Origin: Planococcus liqunii | GTDB lineage: Bacteria; Bacillota; Bacilli; Bacillales_A; Planococcaceae | NCBI RefSeq assembly: GCF_030413595.1 | Contig: NZ_CP129238.1 | Location: 620,001-684,000, forward strand | Reading direction: 5' to 3' | Length of the DNA: 64,000 bases | Part shown: positions 14,799 to 59,886 of the stretch, in pieces | How positions within the stretch are numbered: the first letter of the stretch is position 1 | Layout: every line of letters starts with the position of its first letter | Notes under the pieces: generated by a model | What the model was told of the DNA's origin: nothing | Databases searched by the model: none | What the model saw: only the letters and a program-made list of their open reading frames with translations | Made by a program: the position numbers and the translations under genes

Positions 14799-15535
14799 AT
14801 GTGATTGTGGTGGAAAACTACGATGAAATGAGCCTGCGCGCTGCAGAAATCGTGGAACAGCAAGTTTTGAAAAATGCAAAATCGATTCTCGGACTAGCTA
14901 CCGGTTCCACTCCGCTCGGCCTTTATGGCAAAATGGTTGAGGGGTTTAAAAACCGTGGCGTTTCCTATGAGCAGATCAAGACCGTCAATCTCGACGAATA
15001 CCAAGGACTGAATCGCAACCATCCGAACAGCTACCATAGTTTCATGTACGAAAATTTATTCAAACACATCAACATTCAGATGCGCAATACCTATCTTCCG
15101 GATGGGCAAGCCCGCTCGGTGGAAGAGGAATGCGTTCGCTACGAGGCGCTGATTGACCGGATCGGCCCGGTGCATTTGCAGATTCTCGGAATGGGGACGA
15201 ATGGCCATATCGGATTCAACGAACCGGGTACCCCTGAAGACAGTTTGACGCATTGCGTCGAACTCGATGAATCCACACGCAAAAACAATGCCCGCTTTTT
15301 TGAATCACAGGAAGCCGTGCCGACGCATGCAATAACGATGGGAATCACTTCGATTTTAAAAAGTGACCGCATTTTGTTGCTGGCATCCGGGAAGAAAAAA
15401 GCCCCAGCCGTCAAAAAGCTGATGGAACAGCAAGTAAGCGAAGATTTTCCGGCTTCGTTTTTATGGAACCATGACGATGTGACACTTATTGCAGACCGGG
15501 ATGCCTATCAATTGGTGGAACCAGAAAGGCAGTGA
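14795..15535 (+). CDS. nagB: Glucosamine-6-phosphate deaminase
   Basis: A 246-residue, single-domain NagB of the short Gram-positive type. Asp67 (VNLDEY), the GTNGHIGFNEPG segment with His138 and Glu143, and the ATGSTPLGLY phosphate loop are intact. It turns glucosamine-6-P into fructose-6-P and ammonia, the last step of the salvage route. The C-terminal allosteric extension seen in E. coli NagB is absent. It overlaps nagA and nagR by four bases on either side, so the three form a tightly coupled unit. Confidence 0.95.
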   Translation: MNVIVVENYDEMSLRAAEIVEQQVLKNAKSILGLATGSTPLGLYGKMVEGFKNRGVSYEQIKTVNLDEYQGLNRNHPNSYHSFMYENLFKHINIQMRNTYLPDGQARSVEEECVRYEALIDRIGPVHLQILGMGTNGHIGFNEPGTPEDSLTHCVELDESTRKNNARFFESQEAVPTHAITMGITSILKSDRILLLASGKKKAPAVKKLMEQQVSEDFPASFLWNHDDVTLIADRDAYQLVEPERQ

Positions 15536-18041: not shown

Positions 18042-18221
18042 TTAAGAACCGCGTTTGAGTTTTCCAATGGTCTTCTGGAATTTGCCTTTGGTCTTGTCAA
18101 ACTTGCCTTCATTCTGCAGGCGCGGATTGTCTGTGGCATTGCCGACTTGATCTTTGACTTCACCTTTTGTCCGGCTGACGACGCTTTTCAGTTTGTCTGA
18201 GAACCCTTTGTCACGGGCCAT
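18042..18221 (-). CDS. csbD: CsbD-family stress protein
   Basis: A 59-residue, highly charged protein (starting MARDKGFSDKL, ending IGKLKRGS) with the CsbD pattern of repeated K-G-E/K and D-N-P motifs (TKGEVKDQVGNATDNP, GKFDKTKGKFQKTIG). An AGGAGG site lies 8 bases before its ATG. CsbD is a sigma-B-controlled general stress protein in B. subtilis whose molecular role is not known. A sigma-B-like promoter lies upstream here. It is convergent with the acetyltransferase and divergent from the exonuclease gene. Confidence 0.88.
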   Translation of the reverse strand: MARDKGFSDKLKSVVSRTKGEVKDQVGNATDNPRLQNEGKFDKTKGKFQKTIGKLKRGS

Positions 18222-21658: not shown

Positions 21659-21714
21659 TTGGGCATAAACAGCCGAAGTTGGGCATAAACAGCTGCGACT
21701 CGGGCATAATCAAC
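21659..21714. repeat. Short-period intergenic array, core GGGCATAA (locus 1)
   Basis: GGGCATAA occurs at 21661, 21681 and 21702, spacings of 20 and 21 bases. The first two units share TTGGGCATAAACAGC. The array lies between the stop of the methyltransferase gene and a bidirectional terminator, in a convergent gene gap. Three other arrays in the window have the same spacing but different cores. Confidence 0.7.
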
Positions 21715-34472: not shown

Positions 34473-35249
34473 ATGCCAGAATTTAATTCAAACGGCGTCC
34501 GCTTGTATTACGAGGAAACAGGGGACGGCGAACCGCTGCTTTTGCTGCATGGGTTAGGCTCAAGCCATTTTATGTTCAAGGAAGAGATGGAGCATTTCAA
34601 AAACGGCTACCGCACCGTTGCCCTCGATTGCCGCGGGCACGGCCAATCCGATCGGCCGGCCAAGTTCACGCTTAATGACCATATTGAAGATGCCGTAGCA
34701 CTGCTTGACCATTTAGGCATCGAAAAAGCCCACGTGATGGGCGTGTCGATGGGCAGCTATATTGCCCAGGGCTTAGCGCTTTCGCATCCGGACCGAGTTG
34801 GAAAACTCATCTTGGTCGTTTCAAAAGCCCACGGGAAAACTTCGTCCACACAGGAAATGCTCGTCCGCTATGCAGATGAGCTGGAAGGGATCCCTGAACA
34901 AAAGCAAATGGAACACTTGTACAAATATGTCTTTCATAACTTGCCGGCAATTCAAAAATGGCAGGAAGAAATGCTGAAACTTGAACCGGAATTGTCGATT
35001 ACCGAAATGGCAGCGGCAAACAAAGCCATGGAAGGGTTTGATTTTCGGGCAGCACTGCCGACTGTAGTTGCTGAAACCTTAGTGATTAGCGGCTCCCATG
35101 ATGGATTGAATCCACCGGTCAGAGGGCAAGAGCTGGCTTCGCTTATTCCAAATGCAGAATTTGTTGAATTCGAACAGTCGGGCCATGCCCCAAATGTTGA
35201 AGAACCGGAGAAGTATTTAAATATAGTGGATGATTTCCTTCGAGAGTAA
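34473..35249 (+). CDS. Alpha/beta-fold hydrolase
   Basis: A 258-residue hydrolase with the complete catalytic set: oxyanion LLLHGLGSS, nucleophile Ser in GVSMGSYIA, aspartate in ISGSHDGLNPP and histidine in FEQSGHAPNVEEP. The sequence is closest to the 3-oxoadipate enol-lactonase/BioH-like esterase group, with a helical lid at about 125-185. The substrate is not predictable. AAAGGAGG precedes the ATG. A small dyad TTACAATTTGTAA at 34445-34457 lies just before the ribosome site. Confidence 0.86.
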   Translation: MPEFNSNGVRLYYEETGDGEPLLLLHGLGSSHFMFKEEMEHFKNGYRTVALDCRGHGQSDRPAKFTLNDHIEDAVALLDHLGIEKAHVMGVSMGSYIAQGLALSHPDRVGKLILVVSKAHGKTSSTQEMLVRYADELEGIPEQKQMEHLYKYVFHNLPAIQKWQEEMLKLEPELSITEMAAANKAMEGFDFRAALPTVVAETLVISGSHDGLNPPVRGQELASLIPNAEFVEFEQSGHAPNVEEPEKYLNIVDDFLRE

Positions 35250-35315: not shown

Positions 35316-35436
35316 ACGCGATGAGCTCGTTTGCGTAAGACGACCAGCAATCCTTCATTGGAACACGTTGTGGAGCGTGGCTAGGACGCCGCAAATTTAT
35401 CGAGACCACTTTGCCTTCGGGCGAAGTGGTTTTTTA
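35316..35436 (+). ncRNA. Candidate small RNA of about 120 nt
   Basis: The promoter-like sequence at 35282-35310 and a strong terminator at 35405-35436 bracket a non-coding stretch with internal helices: ACGC with GCGT near the 5' end, and GCGT with ACGC around GGCTAGG near 35368-35385. No reading frame with a ribosome site fits. I do not recognise it as a named RNA. It may instead be the 3' leader of the hydrolase mRNA. Confidence 0.35.
35405..35436 (+). terminator. Terminator with TTCG tetraloop
   Basis: An 11-bp stem ACCACTTTGCC/GGCGAAGTGGT capped by TTCG precedes TTTTTT. It lies 155 bases after the hydrolase stop, unusually far, which favours a separate transcript. Confidence 0.88.
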
Positions 35437-35520
35437 GTTGATTTATCTAAGGAATCGGCTATGTCAATATACAGCATGGTCGAACGTGGCGAAACAGGTT
35501 TTCCGGATGCGAAAAATAAA

Positions 35521-35628
35521 ATACGCTCAGCGATGGCAGAAATACGCACAGCAAACGATAAAATACGCACAGCAAGTGAAGAAATACGCTCAACAACGCT
35601 TAAAATACGATTCCAGCAAAAAATACAT
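35521..35628. repeat. 21-bp-period intergenic array, core ATACGC (locus 2)
   Basis: ATACG starts at 35521, 35542, 35563, 35584 and 35605, exactly 21 bases apart, and a last degenerate ATACA follows at 35623. Each unit is AAATACGC plus a variable, A-rich remainder that often contains CAGCA. The array sits between the TTCG terminator and the terminator of the convergent S9 peptidase gene. Frames through it are open because 21 is a multiple of three, but there is no ribosome site. Confidence 0.85.
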
Positions 35629-35633
35629 AGAAG

Positions 35634-35674
35634 AAAACGGAGCGGCCCAAATTCCTTGGACGCTCCGTTTTTTT
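35634..35674. terminator. Terminator of the S9 peptidase gene
   Basis: An 11-bp stem AAAACGGAGCG/CGCTCCGTTTT with a 16-base loop and A/T tracts on both sides. Confidence 0.8.
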
Positions 35675-37604
35675 ATGGCCTTAAGTTTTCAATTGGTACC
35701 GGTTCGATGGCATCGGCCGGTTCAAAACCGAAAATTTGGCTATAGAAATACAGCTCGGCTTCAATCGAACGCTTGATGTTTTCTGCCATGCGGAAACCGT
35801 GGCCTTCGCCTTCAAATGCCAAATAAGCGACAGGCAACCCTTTTTTCCTTAAGGCATCAACCATCAGCTCTGCCTGATTCGGCGGAACGATTTTATCTTC
35901 GAGCCCTTGCAGAAAAATGATCGGGCAGGACAGCTGATTCGTGAAATTGATGGGTGAGCGGTCGTAATACACTTGTTTCGCTTCCGGGAACGGCCCGATC
36001 AAGCCGTCCGCATAGCGGGATTCCAATTTATGCGTTTCGGTGGCGAACACTTCGAGTTCACTGATGCCGAAATAACTGGCGCCTGCGCGGTAGACGTCCG
36101 TGAAGACGAGCGAGGCCAGGGTCGTATAGCCGCCGGCGCTGCCGCCGACAATAACGGCGCGGTTGCCGTCAACTTCATCTTGCTCCACCAAGTACTTTAC
36201 GGCATTCGCCGAATCTTCCACATCAACTATGCCCCAATTGCCTTTCAGGCGCTCCCGGTATTCCCGGCCGTAGCCGGTCGAGCCGCCGTAATTGACGTCG
36301 ACTACCGCAAATCCCCGGCTTGTCCAATACTGGAATTCCAAGTTCAAAGCGGAAGTGGCGGCACTTGTCGGACCGCCGTGGACCGTTACGATGAGCGGCG
36401 GCTTCTCGCCTGGTGGTGCGGTGTAATGCGGATTTTTCGGACGGTAATAAATGCCGTGAGCCGTCTTGCCGTGAGCTGTCGGAAATTCAATCGTTTCCGG
36501 AATCGACAAATAGTTTGGATTCAAGTCCAGATCTGAAGATACTTTCACGTCCTCCATACGGCCATTTCTATCCATTCGTATAATGCGCAGCGGATCCATG
36601 GGCGATGCAGCGAGAAAGGCGGCTTCGCTGCCATTGCCATGAATGGAAGAAAATACAGTAAAGCGGCTGTCGACCGGAGCCAAATTGCCGGTTTCAAGGT
36701 CGATCTTCGCCAGTCGCCGGTTGCCGTTTTGTGAATAGGAAGCAAGCACCGTCGAGTCGTTCAAGAAATCATAATCCGACCGGCCGAAGATCCAGCTCGG
36801 CCCGCCAAATTCCGCTTCCATAGGGCACACGGCTTCCACTTCGCTGCCGTTCCAGCGCATGAGGTTCCACCAGTTGCTTCGGTCGGACAGGAAGTAAAGC
36901 ACCCCGTCCGGTGACCAGACCGGCTGCAAAATGGAATCAGCAGATCCGCCGGCCACCATACGGGCATTGCTTAGTGAACCATCGTCATTTAAATCAGCAA
37001 GCCACAATTGGGTTTCATCCCATGGCATGTTTGGGTGGTTCCACGTCAAATACGCCAGTTGTTTTGCATCCGGACTGATCCGTGGATTGGAATAAAAATC
37101 ATTGCCGGAAGCGACAATCCGCTCATTGCTGCCGTCGAGGTCTATGACGACAATGGTTGTTTCTGCGGAAATGGTGGATTTGCGGTGGTCTTCGCGTATC
37201 CCGTACAAGCGCCCGCGTGAAGCATCAACTGCCGCATCGGCGTAGCGCAGATCCGGCTCCGAAGTGAGTGCGTGGAATTGCTTTTCCCCTTTTCGGACAT
37301 ACAGCAGATTGTCATCAAAATTCGAGAAGTACAAATGGGATTGATGGACGATAAACGGAGCGCCGCCGTATTCGTGGACGCGGGTGCGCACATTGAAAGG
37401 CGCAGGCGTCAGTTCTATCGTCGACCCGTCTGGAGTTCTTTTCATGACCGTATTGCGTCCGCCTTCCATTGGAAGTTGTTCAACCCAATAAAGGTCCGGT
37501 CCGTCCCATGCCACACTGAGTAGACCGACAGTATCTTGGGTTAGCAAGTCCGGTGCAATAAGTGATTTCCAGCTGCCGTACGGCGAAGTTGCAGGTTGGC
37601 TCAT
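35673..37604 (-). CDS. S9-family prolyl oligopeptidase-type peptidase
   Basis: A 643-residue cytoplasmic peptidase. An N-terminal beta-propeller (about 30-380) with WDG/WSPDG repeats is followed by an alpha/beta hydrolase domain. The nucleophile is in VIVGGSAGGYTTLA, the aspartate in LQGLEDKIVPPNQ and the histidine in FEGEGHGFRM; the TVHGGPT oxyanion segment is present. This is the acylaminoacyl-peptidase/dipeptidyl-peptidase class that cleaves short peptides. ATG 37604 follows AAGGAGG; an upstream in-frame start at 37625 is less likely. Confidence 0.92.
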   Translation of the reverse strand: MSQPATSPYGSWKSLIAPDLLTQDTVGLLSVAWDGPDLYWVEQLPMEGGRNTVMKRTPDGSTIELTPAPFNVRTRVHEYGGAPFIVHQSHLYFSNFDDNLLYVRKGEKQFHALTSEPDLRYADAAVDASRGRLYGIREDHRKSTISAETTIVVIDLDGSNERIVASGNDFYSNPRISPDAKQLAYLTWNHPNMPWDETQLWLADLNDDGSLSNARMVAGGSADSILQPVWSPDGVLYFLSDRSNWWNLMRWNGSEVEAVCPMEAEFGGPSWIFGRSDYDFLNDSTVLASYSQNGNRRLAKIDLETGNLAPVDSRFTVFSSIHGNGSEAAFLAASPMDPLRIIRMDRNGRMEDVKVSSDLDLNPNYLSIPETIEFPTAHGKTAHGIYYRPKNPHYTAPPGEKPPLIVTVHGGPTSAATSALNLEFQYWTSRGFAVVDVNYGGSTGYGREYRERLKGNWGIVDVEDSANAVKYLVEQDEVDGNRAVIVGGSAGGYTTLASLVFTDVYRAGASYFGISELEVFATETHKLESRYADGLIGPFPEAKQVYYDRSPINFTNQLSCPIIFLQGLEDKIVPPNQAELMVDALRKKGLPVAYLAFEGEGHGFRMAENIKRSIEAELYFYSQIFGFEPADAIEPVPIENLRP

Positions 37605-49762: not shown

Positions 49763-51745
49763 ATGAAGAAATACTGGGCAGCAATTTTATTAATCGGAGT
49801 GTTTGTGCTTTTGGCAGGCTGCTCGCAGCAGGCCACGCCGGAAGACCGGCTGGCGGCATATATCAATCATTGGAATAAAGGCGAGTATGCCGAAATGTAT
49901 GATGGATTTTTAAATGACGGCACGAAACAGGCGTATGACAAAGCGCAGTTCGTGGACCGCCAGCAAAAACTGAAAAAAGACTTGGGAATCGATGGGCTGG
50001 AAGCGGCTTATACGAAACCGGCAGAAGATGCAAAATGGGAAGAAGAGCAGCCGGCGGATTTCCCGGTGCAGGTCAAAATGAACACACTCGCCGGACCGGT
50101 GGAGTTTGAAAAAACGATGACGCTTCTTCACGAGACGCAAGGCGAAACGGAAGACTGGTTTGTGGAATGGGATCCGTCATTCATCTTCCCGCAATTGGAA
50201 GCCGAAGACGAAATCCGCATCGACCGCATCAAAGCGGTGCGCGGAGAAATTTTGGACCGCACCGGAAAAGGAATCGCCATTAACGGCGGCGGCTATAATA
50301 TCGGCATTGTGCCTGAGAAATTCACCGATGACACCAAAAAAGCCGAGCTTGCGAAACTGCTGAACCAGACGGTCGAACAAATCGATGCGAAGCTGGGGCA
50401 GGACTGGGTCAAGCCGGAATTGTTTGTGCCGCTTGCAAAAATCGCGCGCAACAATACGGAAGTGCTCGATAAAGCCATTGCCATTCCAGGTGTCGCGGCG
50501 CAGCAAGTAGCGATGCGGGAATATCCGTACGAAGAAGCGCTGGGGCATTTGTCAGGCTATATCGGCAGCATCACTGCGGAGCAATTGGAAGAGCGGAAAG
50601 ATGAAGGCTACGCAGCCGGCGACCAAATTGGGCGCCAAGGCTTGGAGCGGACATTTGAAGAACAGCTCCGCGGCAAAGACGGAATGCGAATCTGGATCGA
50701 CAAACCGGCAGAAGGCGTGGAGCCGATTACGGTTGCCGAACAACCGGTGACAGATGGCGAAAACATCACGTTGACGATTGACGCGGAACTGCAGAAAAAA
50801 GCGTTCGCTTCGATGAAAGGCGAACCGGGAACAGCGGCAGCGGTGAATCCAAAAACGGGCGAAACTTTGGCGCTTGTTTCCTCGCCAAGCTTTGACCCGA
50901 ACGAATTCACACTCGGCATCAGCGGCGACCGCTTTAAGGAACTGGAAGCCGATCCATTGACACCGTTGTTCAACCGCTTTGCCCAGGCTTATGCACCGGG
51001 TTCGACTTTGAAACCGGTGACGGCTGCAATCGGCTTAGAAGCGGGGACCTTAAAACCTGCAGAAGGCTTGGAAATCAACGGCAAGTCGTGGCAAGGCGTC
51101 ACGCGCCTGCATCCGGAAGCACCGAATCCGATTGATTTGAACAAAGCCTTGGTGTTCTCAGACAATATTTACTTTGCCCAGCAGGCACTCAAAATGGGCA
51201 ATGAAACCTTTGTTGAAGGCTTGAAGAAATACGGCTTTGGCGAAGACATTCCATTTGCGATGAACTTGGAGGCTTCCCAAATTTCCAATGAAGGCAGCAT
51301 CGATTCGGAAGGCCAGCTGGCAGCGACTTCGTTCGGCCAAGGACAGATGCTGACGAATATCCTTCATTTGGCGACGATGTACGAACCGTTCCTGACTGAC
51401 GGCATCATGTACAAACCGACGCTTGTATTGGACGACAAAGATGCACAGGTGTGGAAAGAAGGCTTAATTTCAGCGGAAAACGCAGCGACGCTCCGCAAAG
51501 GCATGCGCAATGTAGTGGTTGACGGCTATGCGCAATCGGCGAACATTCCAGGCGCTGCGCTTGCCGGCAAAACCGGTACAGCCGAACTAAAAGCAGCCGG
51601 GGAAGAACGCGGCAAAGAAAACGGCTTTTTCGTCACGTACAACGAAGCTGATCCAACGCTTCTGCTTGCGATGATGGTTGAAAACGTCGAAGACAATGGC
51701 GGCAGCGATTACGTGGCCGGCATGGCGGCGGAAGTGTTTAAATAA
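49763..51745 (+). CDS. Penicillin-binding protein, MecA/PBP3-like lipoprotein transpeptidase
   Basis: A 660-residue class B PBP. A lipobox LLAGC puts the lipid on Cys20. A MecA_N (NTF2-like) domain spans about 25-145, a dimerisation domain about 150-320, and the transpeptidase domain the remainder. The SxxK motif is Ser414 to Lys417 (GSTLKP), SDN is 466-468, and KTGTAE starts at 603. It cross-links peptidoglycan outside the membrane. Proteins of this build (B. subtilis PBP3, S. aureus PBP2a) often have low beta-lactam affinity. No mecR/blaR regulators or resistance cassette lie nearby, so it is probably a resident gene. GGAGGT precedes the ATG. Confidence 0.93.
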   Translation: MKKYWAAILLIGVFVLLAGCSQQATPEDRLAAYINHWNKGEYAEMYDGFLNDGTKQAYDKAQFVDRQQKLKKDLGIDGLEAAYTKPAEDAKWEEEQPADFPVQVKMNTLAGPVEFEKTMTLLHETQGETEDWFVEWDPSFIFPQLEAEDEIRIDRIKAVRGEILDRTGKGIAINGGGYNIGIVPEKFTDDTKKAELAKLLNQTVEQIDAKLGQDWVKPELFVPLAKIARNNTEVLDKAIAIPGVAAQQVAMREYPYEEALGHLSGYIGSITAEQLEERKDEGYAAGDQIGRQGLERTFEEQLRGKDGMRIWIDKPAEGVEPITVAEQPVTDGENITLTIDAELQKKAFASMKGEPGTAAAVNPKTGETLALVSSPSFDPNEFTLGISGDRFKELEADPLTPLFNRFAQAYAPGSTLKPVTAAIGLEAGTLKPAEGLEINGKSWQGVTRLHPEAPNPIDLNKALVFSDNIYFAQQALKMGNETFVEGLKKYGFGEDIPFAMNLEASQISNEGSIDSEGQLAATSFGQGQMLTNILHLATMYEPFLTDGIMYKPTLVLDDKDAQVWKEGLISAENAATLRKGMRNVVVDGYAQSANIPGAALAGKTGTAELKAAGEERGKENGFFVTYNEADPTLLLAMMVENVEDNGGSDYVAGMAAEVFK

Positions 51746-51792: not shown

Positions 51793-51821
51793 ATATTGAA
51801 TTGAAAACGTGTTTGTAACCA

Positions 51822-51940
51822 ACGCCGATAGAAAGTCCAGAAACGCCGATAAGAATATGAAAAACGCCGTTAGAAAACCTGAAAACACCGATAGAAAACT
51901 TAAAAACATCGATAAAAACAGCCAGAAACGCCGATAAAGG
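51822..51940. repeat. 21-bp-period intergenic array, core ACGCCGATA (locus 3)
   Basis: The core starts at 51822, 51843, 51864, 51885, 51906 and 51928: four spacings of 21 and one of 22. The core is mostly ACGCCGAT, with variants ACGCCGTT, ACACCGAT and ACATCGAT; the remainder of each unit is A-rich and variable. The array lies between the terminator of the PBP gene and the end of the convergent metalloprotease-like gene. Confidence 0.85.
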
Positions 51941-59782: not shown

Positions 59783-59886
59783 GTCGTATTTCTTCCACTT
59801 CTAGTCGTATTTTCTGGACTACTGGTCGTATTTCCCAGACTACTGGTCGTATTTCAGCCGTTGCCGGTCGTATGCCCGCGGCTGCC
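59783..59886. repeat. 21-bp-period intergenic array, core GTCGTAT (locus 4)
   Basis: GTCGTAT starts at 59783, 59804, 59825, 59846 and 59867, exactly 21 bases apart. Most units read GGTCGTATTTC plus a variable part that includes ACTACT or GCCG. The array lies upstream of the small membrane protein gene and downstream of the terminator of the ureohydrolase-like gene, in a same-strand gap rather than a convergent one. Confidence 0.87.

Follow-up and report, generated by a model that had tools for sequence, protein, structure and literature searches.

Our analysis describes a set of short intergenic arrays, four of them within the 64-kb stretch of DNA under study (hereafter the window), which share one pitch while each carries a core of its own. 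They combine this fixed pitch with a contrast between core and filler, families of cores, recurring positions, gain and loss of units, changes of core that run through an entire array, and a preference for gene ends and for one sense of reading. We give about an even chance to the explanation that the arrays are helically phased rows of asymmetric protein sites on double-stranded DNA, with family-specific cores and a putative reader; what points to a row of protein sites is the conjunction of a two-turn pitch, a slow and asymmetric core, a fast filler of fixed length, a recurring position and cores that are interchangeable. A wider proposal, which we hold more tentatively and would place somewhat short of even, is that the arrays could form a class of ladders set by helical pitch and mostly by a TA head, found in one family and a few other Bacilli, occupying conserved gene-end positions, read by diversifying putative DNA-binding proteins, and able to switch the address of a whole ladder in one step.

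The four arrays of the window are the following.

35518 to 35628, minus strand: array A, five units, mostly NAAATACGCnCAGC on the plus strand, at 21-bp pitch, with a poor sixth at 18 bp
51821 to 51935, plus strand: array B, six units of the AAACnnCGATAGAAA type, with spacings of 21, 21, 21, 21 and 22 bp
59783 to 59875, plus strand: array C, five GGTCGTATTT units, all at 21 bp, flanked by two minus-strand genes
21659 to 21708, plus strand: array D, three TTGGGCATAA units, with spacings of 20 and 21 bp

The original prediction had presented array A as an exact 21-bp array of five ATACGC cores. The pitch held, and so did four of the five cores, which we read at 35521, 35542, 35563 and 35584 in uniform 21-bp steps, but the fifth copy, at 35605, is ATACGA, and the weak sixth that follows 18 bp further on is ATACAT. 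Tandem Repeats Finder (TRF) scores for this array are 79 at period 21 and 116 at period 42. The three further arrays that had been reported in gaps of the window, here B, C and D, are all real. A fifth lag-21 match (18057-18109) was excluded as coding, since it lies in a minus-strand gene at 18042-18221. The cores had also been called unrelated, a description that survives in part: each array does have its own core, but most share a TA head, and the cores of B, C and D recur elsewhere in the same genome, that of B at L114:19016, L126:12404, L126:12608 and L126:13853, that of C at L222:11537 and that of D at L226:7296 and L128:3942 (L and G numbers are our labels for loci and genomes). The core type of A is also found at L166 in the twin genome G006. 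Most of these supposedly unrelated cores therefore belong to a single architecture.

The pitch stands out clearly from the background. The top scores for self-match at lag 21 in the window were 42, 35, 32 and 16, against a maximum of 13 at this lag in 100 dinucleotide shuffles and of 16 when 10 shuffles were scored over lags 12-63; in the window itself, only lags 21, 42 and 63 exceeded 16 within that range. A wide scan had been named as a possible refutation of the periodicity; run as a comparison of intergenic with coding sequence and with other lags, it left the periodicity standing, with a non-coding excess at lags 20-22. In the window's genome (G000, 3.96 Mb in a single contig), a 25% sample of 1.004 Mb contained 14 non-coding and 3 coding regions at these lags, while each of eight other three-lag bins (from 11 to 37) held 0-3 non-coding regions. 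The corresponding non-coding counts, at lags 20-22 versus other bins, were 20 versus 0-1 in G005, 14 versus 0 in G007 and 3 versus 0-1 in G006. Counts in stretches of G048, G049, G057 and G041 agree, but are not density estimates, these stretches having been picked for profile matches; together with 20 small regions from other genera, they are not independent evidence for pitch or head.

The spacing itself is, as had been proposed, conserved: among 248 unit spacings in 54 parsed arrays (a set that includes one coding triple and two arrays from another family), 197 are of 21 bp and 35 of 20 bp, making 232 of either length, and the others include seven of 22 bp, six of 18 bp, two of 19 bp and one of 24 bp. 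The 20-bp spacings are mostly a property of whole families. In G005, G007 and G048, AGTGATCATAGAA arrays keep to 20 bp, any 21-bp steps falling mainly at their ends; CGCGGATAA arrays are spaced at 21 bp. In one 20-bp family (TTCTATGATCAC), the arrays at L259:17358, L188:11169 and L272:16064 start with different edge units of 21 bp (TTCTATGAGCGGTT). Arrays have 4-6 units in 78 of 101 cases in the genus, with a range of 3-18. Outside these 101 stand two A/T-rich arrays from another family of the same class (G030, L144:4554-4710 and 15401-15534), which have mixed steps of 20-22 bp (TTAAAAGTTAA, GGATTAAAAA). Hits that proved to be coding or A/T-rich on inspection were dropped (window:18057, L119:12985, L128:5373, L170:12052, L183:15198, L139:16481, L276:17139, L131:11648 and L268:13634). 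Tandem repeats of 7 bp, mostly in cyanobacteria (L018, L025, L042, L048, L076 and others), show lag 21 as a multiple of 7 and are unrelated to the arrays.

An origin of each array in decayed coding sequence, which had been named as a refuting outcome, is unlikely as a general account, given that whole families have a 20-bp pitch. Of the 101 arrays, only 8 have more than half of their length within a predicted gene, a count made after the earlier removal of hits judged coding; seven of these genes are weak calls and one is strong (L166:7210). Some 7-residue repeat 'proteins' in Bacillaceae annotations may be translations of such arrays.

Each array has its own asymmetric core, its units being direct repeats, and the commonest form of the unit on the sense strand is YGNNNRTAWWW. 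When 31 four-unit arrays are turned to one strand, they align without gaps, with little or no variation in the TA of any unit. These were hand-picked from 44 arrays as those with four units at exactly 21 bp (the 13 others have no such run), and strand and register were set through the TA motif, making the invariance in this alignment partly a matter of construction. Because the register was chosen with the motif in mind, a column-shuffle test serves as the control for the TA head: when WHTAY was sought freely in 43 arrays, 28 had it in every one of the four units and 34 in at least three, against means of 2.9 and 8.0 and maxima of 7 and 16 over 300 shuffles; twins and members of one family are not independent in this test. 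The head is missing from at least three of four units in 9 of the 43 arrays, and to the eye it is absent from the array at L001 and from GGGCGATTA arrays. Some cores contain a short palindrome (CCGCGG or TGATCA, for example). We also observed composite arrays, in which CGCTGATAAAC units are followed by an 18-bp step and then by CGACGATAAAC units, at several loci and in several species (L134:5121, L173:11038, L182:13821, L183:10809, L261:915 and L276:11580). Several of the 18- and 19-bp steps are junctions inside composite arrays.

It had been suggested that only spacing is conserved and that the sequences are unrelated. This view did not hold: the TA head is common, the families are dispersed, and cores change far more slowly than linkers or flanks. 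In 25 array pairs from orthologous gaps of non-twin genomes (all the unordered pairs found, those with a changed core included), differences amount to 135/1553 in the core (9%), 351/987 in the linker (36%) and 1863/6193 in the flank (30%). Core and flank differ with a p of 3e-78, places not being independent, and linkers lie slightly above flanks (p 6e-4), as cross-paired units in the alignments would produce. Core columns were defined by agreement within the array and units may cross-pair, which possibly inflates the contrast between core and linker; the exact ratio is soft for this reason, but the core evolves three to four times more slowly than its surroundings. The contrast is also seen in 15 orthologous arrays of two twin pairs (core 59/853, linker 173/613, flank 172/1154), in 11 cleaner twin arrays (core 15/588, linker 106/470) and in nine hand-picked pairs (core 32/648, linker 132/426, flank 641/2380). 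Array A and its ortholog in G006 differ by one base across five units.

Positions are conserved as well. The orthologous gap also holds an array in 28 of 38 directed comparisons between non-twins, a figure for which some targets were chosen for their hits, and in 19 of 24 between twins. The fair figure is that of the blindly chosen targets (G000, G005, G006 and G007), in which the array recurs in 11 of 17 cases against a base rate of 33/210 (p 2e-5), the base rate being that of gaps of at least 150 bp with an array in G005 and G007, and the comparisons not being independent.

What changes at these positions are the units and, in some cases, the identity of the whole array. The comparison of unit number that had been proposed as a check between strains, made here between close species, revealed differences by whole units between twins in array D (four units at 21 bp in G006), in AAGTTGGGC, GTTTATCGT and GATCATAGA arrays, and in others. 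At two twin gaps the identity itself has changed. The gap of array C holds GGTCGTATTT in G000 and a GAGCGTATTT array in G006, and one gap of the G005/G007 pair has CGACG units in one genome and CGCTG units in the other, with a conserved right flank. Also, the aligned counterpart of array B in G006 carries the core AACTTCGATA. Whole-unit differences between twins, together with recent duplications of units and of 42-bp dimers, are what one would expect of neutral minisatellites born from chance intergenic tandem duplications and maintained by slippage. However, founders of random length would yield many pitches, where we find an excess only at 20-22, and neutral repeats would not be expected to drift in their linkers while their cores barely change, nor to recur at the same positions across species, all of which makes this origin very unlikely.

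Gene context was obtained with a purpose-written dicodon gene finder, which gave two flanking genes for 97 of the 101 arrays, or 76 without the twins G006 and G007. The anticipated enrichment at convergent gene ends is there: 25 of the 76 arrays stand in convergent gaps, compared with 64 convergent gaps among 595 that are array-free and at least 150 bp long (p 1.7e-6, odds ratio 4.1), and divergent gaps are depleted (11/76 versus 178/595, p 0.004). Of the 40 arrays in tandem gaps, 36 were oriented, and 28 of these have a sense reading that runs with transcription; array C, whose sense reading opposes both flanking genes, is a counter-example to this rule. As for convergent arrays, 20 of the 25 could be oriented; a terminator precedes the array only on the antisense gene in 12 of them and only on the sense gene in one, with both genes having one in five and neither in two.

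A role in ending transcription had been among the functions first proposed, and it is not borne out in the form of a terminator. Array gaps are not poor in intrinsic terminators, which are found at 18/36 tandem gene ends versus 184/351 in array-free gaps, and at 33/42 versus 71/128 convergent ones; since array gaps hold terminators as often or more often, arrays are not substitutes for them. The same counts weigh against tandem transcription-stop sites, that is, an orientation-dependent roadblock like phage stoperators that would end elongation at gene ends. The asymmetric core, the orientation with transcription, the intergenic place and the several specificities are all traits common to stoperators (PMC9283540), and yet we regard this possibility as highly improbable.

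Orientation and gene-end placement would also suit an element acting at the level of RNA, in the form of motifs repeated in the 3' UTR, to which an RNA-binding protein or a small RNA would bind, with an action on mRNA 3' ends. The agreement of sense with transcription in tandem gaps, the convergent gaps in which the sense gene reaches the array without a terminator and the antisense gene has one (12/20 against 1 for the reverse), the convergent enrichment and the divergent depletion all speak for it. However, a rigid pitch of 20 or 21 has no obvious reason on a flexible RNA, 11 of 76 arrays occupy divergent gaps, and the terminator, where one is found, precedes the array at 42 of 51 gene ends. 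Nor did any of the 8 arrays folded as RNA do clearly better than its shuffles (z from -1.33 to 0.87), a result that fits a DNA target. We consider an RNA element unlikely on balance.

Replication provides another reading of the orientation. In G078 and G211, the origin of which was located by dnaA, 30/32 and 29/32 loci read along the replication fork (59/64 together), and few lie in the origin-proximal quarter (2/32 and 4/32, or 6/64 together). Such a pattern would be expected of an element linked to replication or recombination that is copied, dispersed and oriented at the fork, through single-strand insertion, gene conversion or topology, and that has no local job. Whole-array changes of core at one gap and composite arrays of two identities also resemble an exchange between loci. 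However, there is no such bias in G000 (6/13) or G050 (8/13), where the shortage near the origin is not seen either (6/13 and 3/13 in the proximal quarter), and in the genus sample, for which a cruder gene finder was used, it is absent from convergent (15:11) and divergent (8:7) arrays. Tandem gaps cannot separate the direction of genes from that of replication, and the absence of fork bias from the other two kinds of gap means that the strand bias of genes may explain the orientation. Moreover, the array-rich genomes G000, G048 and G057 have no Y1 transposase at E 1e-8, and copying leaves unexplained why slow cores should sit beside fast linkers. We see an element of this kind as rather improbable.

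Coming back to rows of protein sites on double-stranded DNA, each unit would be made up of a single site, some 10-16 bp long, with free filler behind it; the commonest form of the site would be YGNNNRTAWWW together with letters specific to the family. A pitch of 20 or 21 bp, about two helical turns, would place usually 4-6 bound monomers on one face of the helix, where they would be able to touch. The core family would be the address of one member of a group of proteins that would read the TA head alike and the rest with varying specificity. The resulting filament may have a local job at gene ends, such as shielding, insulating or marking them, distinct from ending transcription. We infer that the reader is a protein, that its target is DNA rather than RNA, and that its job is local to the gene end. 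Some points run against such rows: the TA head is not universal, the candidate domains do not track the arrays, and the transcription-wise orientation and the terminator placing would equally fit an RNA target.

Among known things, the arrays may work most like phage stoperators, although we would file them under neither stoperators nor LytTR repeats. Within a phage, stoperators stand singly and scattered, and serve one repressor. Those of cluster A mycobacteriophages comprise many asymmetric 13-mers, some in short intergenic spaces, whose orientation correlates with transcription; they are bound by monomers, and their repressors differ in immune specificity (PMC9283540). Array units are likewise asymmetric and oriented with transcription, but the arrays are rows of 3-18 sites at a fixed pitch, are chromosomal, have several cores per genome and do not replace terminators. 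The direct repeats bound by LytTR regulators are of 9 bp, mostly with 12 bp of free sequence between them, which amounts to a 21-bp pitch, and the sites consist of two repeats of the ACCnCTTAn kind directly upstream of the -35 box (PMC6193735). The likeness lies in short direct repeats at 21-bp pitch (197/248 spacings in our case); unlike these pairs, arrays have about five units and another consensus, and are depleted from divergent promoter gaps. Also, LytTR genes were not found in two genomes that have arrays, G002 and G053, and are present in array-free genomes.

Other repeats resemble the arrays in part. REP/BIME elements are dispersed and intergenic, favour gene 3' ends and avoid divergent promoters, all of which holds for arrays; their units, however, are palindromic, belong to one sequence family and are spread by a Y1 (RAYT) transposase, whereas arrays have direct asymmetric units, many sequence families, one pitch and no link to Y1. 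Plasmid iterons, like arrays, come as rows of direct repeats, about five in number and each some two helical turns long; every iteron is the site of a Rep monomer, and the rows sit at plasmid replication origins, at one locus per replicon. Arrays, in contrast, occupy tens of chromosomal loci, and an NCBIfam search of ten genes round the window arrays yielded no rep gene. Clusters of DnaA boxes are of the TTATnCACA type, from which the family-specific array cores differ. CRISPR arrays have identical repeats of more than 20 bp and unique, longer spacers, whereas an entire array unit takes 20-21 bp. With VNTRs and minisatellites the arrays share changes of copy number by whole units between close relatives, but their pitch is fixed across families and genera and their core is constrained while the filler is free. 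Close direct repeats in prokaryotes are normal to slightly over-represented, and the array class is not described in the available text of that survey (PMC4060949). Our literature search found no description of such arrays, though one may exist elsewhere. If our explanation is right, a widespread chromosomal system of gene-end marking has been overlooked, because each array resembles a private minisatellite and only the common pitch and head reveal one class. Even if the arrays act on RNA or are selfish, a constrained core beside a fast filler demands a reader, and none is named in the literature that we searched.

The class is widely but unevenly distributed. A profile (R1) built from the 31 aligned arrays, on sequence only, was run against 46 genomes of the genus; at E 0.01, 30 have matches and 16 have none, with up to 67 per genome, these per-genome counts being lower bounds, with at most 99 candidates scored. 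In the family sample, 84 of the 151 genomes have a match, and these cover 15 of the 19 genera; the corresponding figures are 75 of 150 genomes in the order sample and 7 of 151 in the class sample, four of the latter outside the family. Five matches that fall within examined stretches are, by eye, all outside predicted genes and array-like, and two of them had been missed by the lag scan. Twenty places from other genera are arrays with a best lag of 21, 41 or 42, as is natural for hits from a 21-bp profile. Some of the arrays in other genera (L279, L281, L291, L292 and L296) are long, with 11-18 units and a 42-bp higher-order repeat of alternating unit pairs. The 25% sample of G000 suggested regional clustering, an impression that the whole-genome profile search dispelled by placing matches all round the chromosome. 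Arrival on plasmids or phages was also rejected: with the low-complexity filter on, blastn of two arrays against 72,556 plasmid records and of one array against phages gave no match.

In a tree of 23 genomes, made from a single protein and rooted at the midpoint, the nine array-free genomes fall into two separate clades of 7 and 2. Given that other parts of the family do have arrays, this placing points to two or more losses, and to a function that looks dispensable. If the arrays have a reader, such array-free clades beside array-rich sisters would be a natural experiment for finding it, and array-wide changes of core would offer a model for the joint change of a DNA-binding specificity and its many sites. 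Three candidates for the trans factor were rejected, as their presence does not track the arrays. At E 1e-8, LytTR has no hit in G002 and G053 despite their array matches, gives 3-4 hits in the array-free G009, G011 and G019, and none in the array-free G001 and G010. The Y1 transposase is hit in 28 of 46 genomes and, at the same threshold, in none of the array-rich G000, G006, G042, G048, G051 and G057. The DnaA C-terminal domain occurs exactly once in each of the 46 genomes, with or without arrays.

The surroundings of array A include the following features.

34473 to 35249, plus strand: alpha/beta hydrolase gene, PcaD-like (below the family cut-off), one neighbour of array A
35318 to 35429, plus strand: BsrF small RNA gene (RF01411), above the Rfam gathering threshold with 54 bits and E 4.3e-7
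35636 to 35676, no strand assigned: hairpin AACGGAGCG...CGCTCCGTT with a T run, read from the sequence; it separates array A from the end of the S9 peptidase gene
35673 to 37604, minus strand: S9-type prolyl oligopeptidase-like gene, the convergent neighbour of array A

The BsrF gene lies in the gap of array A, just upstream, and terminates ahead of the array in a hairpin with a T run (about 35404-35436); it is the sole match to known RNA families (Rfam) in the whole window, and does not overlap the array. The sense reading of array A (identity letters plus RTAWWW) is on the minus strand, the strand of the S9 peptidase gene, a gene that we take to be of the prolyl oligopeptidase-like kind from a reading of its sequence. 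Its best 80 relatives come from Indiicoccus (65%), Alicyclobacillus, cyanobacteria, Chloroflexi and others, a list from which records very close to the window's genome have possibly been left out, and this spread over distant taxa makes horizontal transfer of the gene probable. Among these best 80 loci, a close relative is found only at L001 (Indiicoccus explosivorum, Caryophanaceae), which has a 21-bp array of its own, with a core that lacks the TA head, right behind the same S9 gene. The window's family would accordingly be Caryophanaceae/Planococcaceae. Array D lies between the stop codon of a plus-strand gene (21639) and a terminator hairpin, and array B between the terminator of a PBP gene and a convergent gene. 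This PBP2a/PBP4(5)-like gene (49763-51745, plus strand), which falls below the family cut-offs, has matches in 40 of the 40 genomes searched, some of them weak.
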